The notes beneath the pieces were generated by a model. The model did no database searches. It was not told the DNA's origin and worked only from the letters and a program-made list of their open reading frames with translations. The position numbers and the translations under genes are program-made. Shown here piece by piece: positions 12,130 through 53,367 of a stretch of DNA of 64,000 nt. Source of the DNA: Halobacteriovorax sp. GB3 (GTDB lineage Bacteria; Bdellovibrionota; Bacteriovoracia; Bacteriovoracales; Bacteriovoracaceae). Each line of letters opens with the position of its first letter. Position 1 is the stretch's first letter. The stretch spans positions 744,001 to 808,000 of the forward strand of contig NZ_JAQSLN010000001.1 of NCBI RefSeq assembly GCF_028649655.1. Reading direction: 5' to 3'.

Positions 12130-12513
12130 TTGAAATTAAAATATGGGCACATGCTCTCTCTTGCTTGTTTTATGCTCTTTTTAGCCGTTGCATTAGGTGC
12201 TTTTGGTGCTCATGGCCTAAAGGAATTAGTAACTGGAAAGTACTTAGAAACCTATAAAACGGGTGTGACTTATCACTTCTACCATAGTTTCGCTCTTTTA
12301 ATTCTTCCTATTATTGGCAAAACGTTCAATATCAATGTCAGAGGTTCATTTTACTTCTTTATCGCCGGTATTATACTTTTTAGTTTCAATTGCTATCTCT
12401 ATGCTATTTTACAAGTTAAAACTTTTGCGATGATCGTACCTCTTGGTGGATTTTCGTTTCTTATTGGTTGGCTTATGCTTGCCTTAACAACTCTTAAAAC
12501 GAGTGAAGGATAA
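12130..12513 (+). CDS. DUF423-family inner-membrane protein
   Basis: Small integral membrane protein of the DUF423 (YgdD-like) family, function unknown. Four hydrophobic segments are visible. The conserved family features are ALGAFGAHGLK after TM1, the TYHFYHSFALL stretch, and FSFLIGWLMLA at the end. I place the start at the TTG at 12130, 7 bases after AAGGA; an ATG at 12124 would touch the ribosome site and the GTG at 12091 has none, so the N-terminus is uncertain by up to 13 residues. The next gene starts 4 bases after the stop, so they are co-transcribed. Confidence 0.8.
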   Translation: MKLKYGHMLSLACFMLFLAVALGAFGAHGLKELVTGKYLETYKTGVTYHFYHSFALLILPIIGKTFNINVRGSFYFFIAGIILFSFNCYLYAILQVKTFAMIVPLGGFSFLIGWLMLALTTLKTSEG

Positions 12514-12517
12514 ATTC

Positions 12518-12919
12518 ATGAAATCTCTTTTTATTGGTCTTCTTTTTTTATCACAACTAAGCTTTGCCAACGATTGCAACACCGACTTTAGAAATGGAGC
12601 CACTGATCTAAACTTTGGTGAAACCACTTTCAATTTCGCCATTGATCAATACAATAATGCCGTGGAAGAGTCTGAATCGGATAGTCCAAGTATTCAGCTC
12701 ATCTGTGATTATCTTCATAGCTCAGGAGCTAACTTTCAAGTGGCCTCAGAGAGATTTCAATTTTGTGGTGCCTCGTTTCTTGCGGCCATGAGTTCGTGTC
12801 AGGGTGAAGATGTTATCATCGCGAGTCGATACAAGAATACGTGTTTAAAAAATAAAGAAACGGCATTTGCAAATGGTCATCATCTGCAAAATCTCTATGA
12901 TCAAACTTGTCGTAAATAA
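12518..12919 (+). CDS. Small exported cysteine-containing protein
   Basis: Unrecognised 133-residue protein with a clear signal peptide (MKSLFIGLLFLSQLSFA-NDC). The mature chain has six cysteines spread along it (NDCN, LICD, QFCG, SSCQ, NTCL, QTCR), an even number that would allow three disulfides in the periplasm or outside the cell. The stop of the DUF423 gene overlaps its ribosome site (AAGGAT, 8 bases before the ATG), implying translational coupling. An in-frame ATG at 12503 lies inside the preceding gene and was not used. A terminator follows. Confidence 0.7.
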   Translation: MKSLFIGLLFLSQLSFANDCNTDFRNGATDLNFGETTFNFAIDQYNNAVEESESDSPSIQLICDYLHSSGANFQVASERFQFCGASFLAAMSSCQGEDVIIASRYKNTCLKNKETAFANGHHLQNLYDQTCRK

Positions 12920-12944: not shown

Positions 12945-12979
12945 AAAAAAGGCCAACGACTTGTTTGTTAGGCCTTTTT
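12945..12979 (+). terminator. Rho-independent terminator
   Basis: Stem AAAAAGGCC/GGCCTTTTT with a roughly 16-base loop, followed by the T-run. It ends the DUF423-small-protein operon. Confidence 0.75.
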
Positions 12980-13001
12980 CGCCTCTAATTCGACCCAATC
13001 T

Positions 13002-13017
13002 TGGTATTTAATTTGCA
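13002..13017 (+). promoter_or_regulatory. Sigma-54-like promoter
   Basis: TGGTAT-N5-TTGCA, which keeps the invariant GG and GC exactly 10 bases apart, as sigma-54 promoters require, and fits TGGYAY...TTGCW. It ends 35 bases before the ATG of the six-repeat protein, a sensible leader length. Predicted start of transcription is near 13028. Confidence 0.55.
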
Positions 13018-13051: not shown

Positions 13052-15130
13052 ATGAAATCGAAATCTCTCTTTGTTTTTTTTAGTTTAATCTCTTGTGCGA
13101 GTGCATTTGAGTTTAATGTCGCCATCTCTAAGATGGCCTATGAAAATCCAAAAGAGAGTGAATTTGAACAGAAAAAAGAAGCGGGTTACTTAAGGGCCGG
13201 AAGTTTTCGCATTCAACTTCCTAATGTTAAATTTGTATTGAAACCTAATCAATCACTCGATTCCTCTATTTTTCTCGATGATACATGGCTTTATCTCGAT
13301 GATCAGATGTTTGAGCTCTCATATCGAAAAGAAGAAATTCCGGGGCTCAATAAAGTCTACCGCGCTGAGCTTGATAACTTCACAATGCTTACCAATGACA
13401 ATCTCTTGTCGATAGAAGGTGAGTATGGCCAATTGGAATTTGATGAAACAGTTTTTCTTTTTAAAAATATGAATCTCTTGTGCCATTTGAATGAGAGTGT
13501 TTTATCGAAGGGAAGTGGTGTAATTGATTCTTGTCTTAATTCATCTAAAATTTCCCAATATAATGACAAAGGATCGCTCTATACAGATATTGAATATGGA
13601 AATGAAAAACTAAAAACAAAATTTCTCATTGAAAGTGCTGAAGTTACTGAAGATAGTTTTAATGTCGATACAAATAACTTCTTTGTTGTATCAGATGATT
13701 TCGTCGTGGGATCTGAAAAATTAAGTCTAAGTTGTTATAAAGAGCATTATTCAAAAGATATTGATCCAAAGATAGTTGTCGCTAATTGTTTAAAGAGTGC
13801 AGATATTCAAACGCCTCTCATTCATTTTTCTGCTCAGAAAAATAAAGTAACAGGGGCCATCTCTGTTGATGATTTTCGCGCTAATGGAAAGCAAGTTCTC
13901 TTTAAAGGCCCTGATGTTAATATTCAGACCGAAAATAATCAGATTAGCTTCTCGAATCTCTTTGCCTTTTGTCAATTACCAGCACTTGATGAGGGATTTG
14001 AATACTCACATATGGCCAATGGCTGTTATGATCGCTCTTCGATAGGTCTTAAGAGCTTGTCTCTATCGTCTATGAAGGGGAATGTTGATATTGATCAGAT
14101 GTCATTGAATTTCAATGAGGACAACTTTAAATTTTACACTCCAAATTTTCAGGCCAACTGGGGTAAATCTACTTATAAAGTTAAAGAAATCAGCTACGGT
14201 TGCCACAAACTTGAAACAGATAAAGAAATTACTCAAGATCTTATTGTTAATGGTTGTCTCGAATCCTCTAGTGGACTTATAAATAACTTCTTACTCGATA
14301 GTGAACAAACGACATTGTCATTTCTAAAAGCAAACCTTGATGTAAAGAAAAATAGACTAAGCTTCTCTAGTCCAATCGTTCAAGTTGTCTCTAAAGAAAA
14401 TACTTTAAGCCTAGACTTTCTTAATCCTGAGATTTCTTGTCAAAGGGATCGTGATAGCGAGTTGAGTGTGGAAAGTGTTCTACGCGGTTGTTTTGACAGT
14501 TCAAAAATTACTGTAGGTTCTGTTCGTTTAAGTCACGACAATATTGATTCAAAAATTCATGTTGATAAAGTATCAGTGGATAAAAATAATCTCTTTTTAA
14601 GTAGTCCATCAGGCAAGTACTCACTTAACGGTATGGACAATGTGTATAAGAAATTAAAAATAAGCTGTGGTCTAAACGCTAGTTATGACCTTGCAAAAAA
14701 TCATGACTGGGAAACAGTTCTTGAAAACTGTCTACACAGTACGACTTTTAGTCTCGACTCTCTTGTCGCTAAGTATAATGGAGATAGTACATTTAGACGT
14801 TTTGGTAATTCTCTTAAAAACTTTGGAATTAAGGGAATGAGTGATATTCATTATGACTCGAAGTCTCACTCAAAAGAGAAATTTACCTTAGAAATCGTTC
14901 CAAAATTACTTTCCGTCATTCCTGTTAGCGTGACGGTAAAAGGGAATATCTCTTATAATCGCGATCAGAAAATCATTGATATCAAAGTTAATAAAACAAA
15001 GTTCTATGGCATTATTCCGGCGCGCTTTCTCGTTCAATTGATTCTCAAGGCCTTTGTCGCCAACGATAGTATGAAAGTGGATGGAAATCGCATTACAATC
15101 GATTTAAATGCCAGTGATGATGAAGCCTAA
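13052..15130 (+). CDS. Exported protein with six Cys-paired beta-type repeats
   Basis: Unrecognised 692-residue protein with a signal peptide (1-19, cut after ASA). Twelve cysteines of the mature chain fall into six pairs at 144/161, 228/246, 307/325, 384/402, 463/480 and 539/560. The pairs are 17-21 apart and the units repeat every 76-84 residues, each ending in C-[LYF]-x-[SR]-[SA]. The rest of each unit is alternating polar/hydrophobic sequence with paired Asn/Asp turns, so beta-strand rich. The last 90 residues form a different domain (VKGNISYNRDQKIIDIKVNK, later ITIDLNAS) that loosely recalls AsmA/LmeA-type lipid-binding folds; that resemblance is weak. Preceded by a sigma-54-like promoter. 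Confidence 0.75.
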   Translation: MKSKSLFVFFSLISCASAFEFNVAISKMAYENPKESEFEQKKEAGYLRAGSFRIQLPNVKFVLKPNQSLDSSIFLDDTWLYLDDQMFELSYRKEEIPGLNKVYRAELDNFTMLTNDNLLSIEGEYGQLEFDETVFLFKNMNLLCHLNESVLSKGSGVIDSCLNSSKISQYNDKGSLYTDIEYGNEKLKTKFLIESAEVTEDSFNVDTNNFFVVSDDFVVGSEKLSLSCYKEHYSKDIDPKIVVANCLKSADIQTPLIHFSAQKNKVTGAISVDDFRANGKQVLFKGPDVNIQTENNQISFSNLFAFCQLPALDEGFEYSHMANGCYDRSSIGLKSLSLSSMKGNVDIDQMSLNFNEDNFKFYTPNFQANWGKSTYKVKEISYGCHKLETDKEITQDLIVNGCLESSSGLINNFLLDSEQTTLSFLKANLDVKKNRLSFSSPIVQVVSKENTLSLDFLNPEISCQRDRDSELSVESVLRGCFDSSKITVGSVRLSHDNIDSKIHVDKVSVDKNNLFLSSPSGKYSLNGMDNVYKKLKISCGLNASYDLAKNHDWETVLENCLHSTTFSLDSLVAKYNGDSTFRRFGNSLKNFGIKGMSDIHYDSKSHSKEKFTLEIVPKLLSVIPVSVTVKGNISYNRDQKIIDIKVNKTKFYGIIPARFLVQLILKAFVANDSMKVDGNRITIDLNASDDEA

Positions 15131-23008: not shown

Positions 23009-23107
23009 GGTGGCATTTTGTCATCAGTGTCACTTATGGGACCAATTAGATTTAGTTAATTCTTACCAGTCCTACGTCATAATCGTTAGTTACAACTTTT
23101 CAAATTT

Positions 23108-23123
23108 TGGCACAGCGCTTGCT
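23108..23123 (+). promoter_or_regulatory. Sigma-54 promoter of the first DksA/TraR gene
   Basis: TGGCAC-N5-TTGCT, a near-exact match to the sigma-54 consensus with the required GG-N10-GC spacing. Transcription should start near 23134, about 130 bases before the ATG, leaving a long leader. Such promoters need an enhancer-binding ATPase; none is in the window. Confidence 0.85.
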
Positions 23124-53346: not shown

Positions 53347-53351
53347 AGAAT

Positions 53352-53367
53352 TGGCACTAGAATTGCT
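53352..53367 (+). promoter_or_regulatory. Sigma-54 promoter of the HExxH exported protein gene
   Basis: TGGCAC-N5-TTGCT, matching the sigma-54 consensus with exact GG-N10-GC spacing. Transcription should start near 53378, leaving a leader of about 105 bases that contains a long stem. Confidence 0.85.

Follow-up and report, generated by a model that had tools for sequence, protein, structure and literature searches.

The window, the whole 64,000-nucleotide stretch of the Halobacteriovorax sp. GB3 genome analyzed here, carries an open reading frame (13052-15130, +) that encodes a 692-amino acid protein with six repeat units. The protein begins with a signal peptide, probably of the signal peptidase I type (MKSKSLFVFFSLISCASA; 13052-13105), which, as read from the sequence, is short, has an A-S-A cleavage motif, and is followed by no second hydrophobic segment. 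Behind it lie a beta-rich N-terminal region without cysteines (13106-13300) and the units themselves, each with one pair of cysteines: unit 1 (C144-C161; 13301-13534, its start approximate), unit 2 (C228-C246; 13535-13789), unit 3 (C307-C325; 13790-14026), unit 4 (C384-C402; 14027-14257), unit 5 (C463-C480; 14258-14491), and unit 6 (C539-C560; 14492-14731), all on the + strand. The last 132 residues (14732-15130, +, stop codon included) form a domain that differs from the units, with a strand-strand-strand-helix-strand order that is common to all family members, and end in NASDDEA. Ahead of the gene are a sigma-54-type promoter (TTGGTATTTAATTTGCA, GG-N10-GC; 13001-13017, +), 34 bases from the ATG, and a terminator-like inverted repeat (AAAAAGGCC...AGGCCTTTTT; 12946-12981), recognized by direct reading, which separates the gene from the upstream ORF. 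Just upstream, positions 12503-12919 encode a small, exported, cysteine-rich protein of 138 amino acids, which has no Pfam match and is apparently unrelated.

How regular is this layout? The two cysteines of a pair are 17-21 residues apart, and successive units are spaced by 76-84 residues. When 12 cysteines were placed at random in the mature chain, none of 200,000 placements gave six consecutive pairs 16-22 residues apart (the best gave five), and unit spacing this even was likewise never reached (0/200,000). An earlier note on this DNA had described the six pairs, their spacings, and a distinct C-terminal domain, and the 692-residue frame returns exactly those positions. The sole cysteine outside the pairs, C15, sits inside the signal peptide; it is unlikely to be a lipoprotein anchor, because the orthologue L004 lacks this cysteine.

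The promoter belongs to a genome-wide pattern. The motif TTGGYAYN5TTGCW has 25 matches in the genome—the promoter of the 692-residue protein among them—vs. 1 for a reversed control, and the genome encodes sigma-54. A looser pattern, TTGG-N8-TTGC, was found six times in the window alone against 2.2 expected, a mild enrichment only. The two closest orthologues, one from the same genus and one from another, also have a sigma-54-type site ahead of the called start, at a distance of 17-39 bases: TCGGCACTCATTTTGCA in L004/L089 (39 bases ahead of the start) and TTGGAATGGATATTGCT in L053 (17 bases ahead of the called start). Because of the pattern counts, the sigma-54 gene, and the sites at the orthologues, the prediction of a sigma-54-like promoter is sounder than a first look at the letters alone could know. 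Strong sites of the same type also occur elsewhere in the window, at 23107-23123 before a DksA/TraR-like ORF (23265) and at 53351-53367 before an ORF for an 804-amino acid exported protein (53463).

How widespread is the protein, and how variable is its unit number? The family is apparently undescribed, with no catalogue entry or convincing family match in Pfam, NCBIfam, and PDB sequence searches made with the protein and with profiles; hits to PAS_6 (E 0.028), to spore YabP (on a relative), and to cytochrome oxidase (E 0.44) were judged unconvincing. An orthologue from the same genus, in Bacteriovorax sp. BSW11_IV, is 43-44% identical. Within the same bacterial family, 92 of 129 genomes and 36 of 48 genera have members; in a search of 369 genomes of the phylum, one genome outside that family had a match. 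The viral contigs scanned contained no homologues, and the plasmids searched gave no match. Members carry one to six cysteine pairs, and their lengths (261 to 752 amino acids) track the pair number: 261-311 with one pair, 338-429 with two, 422-502 with three, 567-568 with four, 615-752 with five, and 670-695 with six, these being lengths of open frames, some of which are called from a start that precedes the true one. The class with five includes three members with five units, one of which lacks both cysteines. The parts that flank the units stay constant: the first cysteine is mostly found around residue 125-165, and about 106-160 residues follow the last pair. The variation in repeat number among homologues that the earlier note had proposed looking for is present.

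Unit number has also changed repeatedly. On a tree of 71 proteins, built from the last unit and the C-terminal domain, it changes at least 11 times. The five-unit orthologue L053 clusters with the six-unit proteins of the window and of BSW11_IV (support 100/99), and its alignment gap amounts to about one unit, around unit 4, a region that it lacks. At an hflC-like/argK-like locus, the gene of the window's genome has three units and that of two further genomes (G008 and G087) has five. One-unit and multi-unit members are homologous over the last unit and the C-terminal domain (hhalign E 1.5e-15). Elsewhere in the family, two two-unit genes (L007 and L013; G003:C1:2127546-2130523) form a same-strand tandem that looks like a gene duplication.

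The cysteines of a unit come or go together. A cysteine-masked unit profile—built from two-cysteine units, so that strongly diverged units could escape it—recovered 209 units: both cysteines are present in 207 and absent from 2, and no unit has only one. This all-or-none distribution is the pattern that a disulfide within the unit would predict, and it argues for such a bond; several DsbA-family proteins (oxidases) are encoded in the genome. Cysteines that were not conserved in homologues would have spoken against the repeat reading of the earlier note, and they are instead conserved as intra-unit pairs. Coevolution on 217 units gave a hint of neighboring hairpins that was too weak to use, and the Cys-Cys signal in it is there by construction. 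One family member, L077, has no cysteines at all, and a 571-amino acid relative (L065:1097-2809) has a different cysteine layout, which suggests extra disulfides across units.

What does a unit look like? In the consensus of the 217 units, a unit of ~78 residues has four strands of ~13 residues, then the first cysteine, a loop with a short helix, and the second cysteine. All four strands show alternating hydrophobic positions with an odd step at mid-strand, as would be seen in a strand bent across a V. In the window protein, hydrophobic residues occupy 82% of the positions that face inward and 14% of those that face outward (Fisher P about 1e-31), in columns chosen without the protein itself and its same-genus orthologue. 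An AlphaFold model of units 4 and 5, made from a six-row repeat alignment whose rows were other units of the window protein and the BSW11_IV orthologue, reached pLDDT 73 and pTM 0.65, with four 13-residue strands, a helix (71-80) at the second cysteine, and then the strands of the next unit. The chain is modeled as a continuous antiparallel sheet rather than as separate globular domains, the outcome that the earlier note had named as telling against its proposal.

Structural comparison places this model nearest to the lipopolysaccharide transport proteins. In VIA-align, LptC was the best match of the two-unit model (Z 9.3 and 9.1; rmsd 3.9-4.1, 109-111 residues aligned across both units), followed by the LptD taco (Z 8.7 and 8.1), ApoB100 (7.7), and LptA (about 6-7); a Z near 9 is barely to moderately above the level that unrelated models reach, and the single-layer sheets of OspA (mutants) and TCP10 come nearly as high (Z 5-9 against the models, 5-7.5 for the two-unit model). 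The alignments to LptC and LptD extend over both units and so argue, with moderate force, for a single continuous sheet. Since the Z values exceed background only moderately, the claim for the fold is itself moderate, and we regard the groove topology as moderately supported. A full-length model, from a two-row alignment, had a pLDDT of 42 and formed one continuous meander, and its fold matches were used as support only. Of the earlier note's proposal of a repeating beta-groove protein akin to AsmA, the groove gains from the two-unit model and its Lpt-like neighbors; the AsmA kinship finds no Pfam match.

The C-terminal domain points, faintly, toward lipid-binding folds. One-unit relatives matched DUF4403 (E 1.4e-4, below the cut-off) and LmeA (PF11209, DUF2993) at best with 17.9 bits and E 0.0034, where the cut-off is 27.3 bits; the six-unit window protein itself matched neither. 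When 369 genomes were scanned with DUF4403, only four had matches, and at least three of these fall on one-unit family members (G101:C45:7286-7462, G129:C19:7148-7399, and G113:C17:113880-114131); the fourth genome (G121) also holds a family match. The similarity to these TULIP-type families thus appears faint but specific. DUF4403 and the C-terminus of DUF2993/LmeA are assigned to the TULIP lipid-binding fold, and LmeA is described as a Chorein-N part joined to TULIP, in Levine 2019 (PMC6791001). By weak profile similarity, then, the end of the window protein may be TULIP-like, and the whole could be an extended analogue of the LmeA layout, a lead rather than a demonstrated membership. In the full-length model this domain falls below pLDDT 50. 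The hint of AsmA/LmeA that the earlier note saw here survives weakly for LmeA, through the one-unit relatives, and does not for AsmA.

Do the neighboring genes suggest a function? The six-unit gene has different neighbors in the window and in BSW11_IV, and next to the window gene there is neither a conserved operon partner nor a lipid enzyme. Behind many genes with three, four, or five units comes a small exported cysteine protein, whose start is no more than about 40 bases past the stop (11-37 bases downstream). This protein (L002:855-1133, L006:2817-3158, and others) has about 93-130 amino acids, conserved cysteines, and no Pfam match; it is likely an operon partner of the three- to five-unit genes, and none lies downstream of the window gene. 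In three genera, one of them that of the window, one-unit relatives (L049, L079, L085, and L086) lie between murG-like and HI0933-like flavoprotein genes, divergent from the murG-like gene.

What, then, might the protein do? We think it somewhat more probable than otherwise that it is a lipid carrier: soluble, periplasmic, built around a beta-groove whose length can be adjusted, and finished by a TULIP-like domain. Every ~78-residue unit, six in all, would add four antiparallel strands to one continuous bent sheet; these strands are hydrophobic on a single face and have an offset halfway along. Beyond strand 4, the chain would make a short helical excursion, and a disulfide would join the two ends of that excursion at the junction between strand 4 and the following unit's strand 1; one edge of the trough would thereby be stapled once per unit. 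The TULIP-like domain would close the series. Such a trough would most likely hold the acyl chains of lipids and move them between membranes or hand them to an acceptor; both the lipid cargo and the direction of transfer are putative. The number of units would set the length of the trough: by geometry (4 strands × 4.8 Å per unit), six units and the N-terminal part would give a groove of roughly 13 nm, to which the end domain is added, and one unit with the N-terminal part about 4 nm. The protein has no membrane anchor, and most of its relatives, with one to three units, could not reach across the periplasm. Bridging can therefore not be what the family does in general, and we favor a soluble carrier, or a component of some larger assembly, over a fixed bridge; with six units, the protein might nearly span the periplasm.

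The same observations can be read in other ways. A secreted scaffold or adhesin—an OspA-like single-layer beta rod or a string of disulfide-bonded beta-domains that binds proteins or glycans rather than lipids—would fit the export, the lack of an anchor, and a repeat-number variation typical of surface rods, and the OspA mutants and TCP10 are the structures that would speak for it. A free single-layer sheet, however, could not expose so strongly hydrophobic a face; with LptC and LptD as the best matches of the two-unit model and a C-terminal domain that leans to TULIP families, we hold this reading to be unlikely. The groove might also be real and its cargo different, as in a periplasmic chaperone whose trough would shield outer-membrane proteins, lipoproteins, or hydrophobic peptides. 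TamB-type grooves have also been implicated in protein assembly (PMC11014939), and the small cysteine protein encoded after the three- to five-unit genes is a possible client or partner. The window gene lacks such a partner, however, and the closest folds carry LPS or lipids, which leaves a chaperone rather improbable.

An outer-membrane beta-barrel, whose alternating strands would face lipid on the outside, seems to us very improbable. The signal peptide and the alternating strands of about 13 residues would suit it, and porins are among the structures that align with the low-confidence full-length model (Z 7-9), but the alternation is broken at mid-length of every strand and the C-terminus has no terminal aromatic strand of the usual kind. 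A barrel would also sit poorly with conserved stapled helical loops and with the removal of four-strand units in any number, and the two-unit model is LptC-like. The lipid carrier remains our preferred reading, and it has a bolder form, which we put forward only tentatively: a new class of bacterial lipid-transfer protein in which groove length evolves through the gain or loss of four-strand modules, each locked by a disulfide of its own, with a TULIP end, which would act in the envelope of these predatory-type bacteria or at their interface with prey, with one branch under sigma-54 control.

Bridge-like groove proteins are central to the passage of lipids across the periplasm and between organelles, but in old, diverged families it is difficult to trace how such grooves have lengthened over evolution. 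The single lineage studied here offers a ladder of one to six near-regular modules, and its orthologues differ by whole units; groove length, disulfide stapling, and function can therefore be compared directly along it. If the lipid-carrier reading is right, this is an unannotated lipid-handling family of predatory-type bacteria, one branch of which has a conserved sigma-54-type promoter.

How does the protein compare with known systems? Like the beta-taco (beta-jellyroll) of LptA, LptC, and LptD, it is predicted to form a continuous antiparallel meander with one hydrophobic face. Unlike them, it would have a stapled Cys-helix-Cys loop for every four strands, an extra C-terminal domain, and up to six units in one chain, where Lpt proteins are oligomerizing single modules; neither the window protein nor any family member examined matched an Lpt family in Pfam or NCBIfam. 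LmeA, which joins a groove-like N-terminal part to TULIP, and DUF4403 share weak profile similarity with the one-unit relatives, whereas the passages of PMC6791001 used here mention neither repeats nor cysteine staples for LmeA or DUF4403. The AsmA superfamily (AsmA, TamB, YhdP, and YdbH) offers the concept of an exported, elongated beta-groove with proposed lipid transport; the window protein is far smaller and has a cleavable signal in place of AsmA's inner-membrane anchor. It has no match to AsmA (PF05170) at E up to 10, the genome as a whole has none, and a separate TamB is encoded there. The eukaryotic RBG bridges (VPS13, ATG2, and BLTP1-3) resemble it in that the count of groove modules sets the length and each module ends in a helical loop (PMC7613979). 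An RBG domain, however, has five strands and a loop that crosses the groove (PMC7613979), whereas the ~78-residue unit here has four strands in the consensus and, with moderate confidence, in the two-unit model, and its disulfide-closed loop apparently stays on one edge; we do not assign it to that domain. The earlier note was thus largely right on the fold and partly on the kinship. The protein stands outside the AsmA, LmeA, and Lpt sequence families tested, yet it would work much as an Lpt or RBG groove does.
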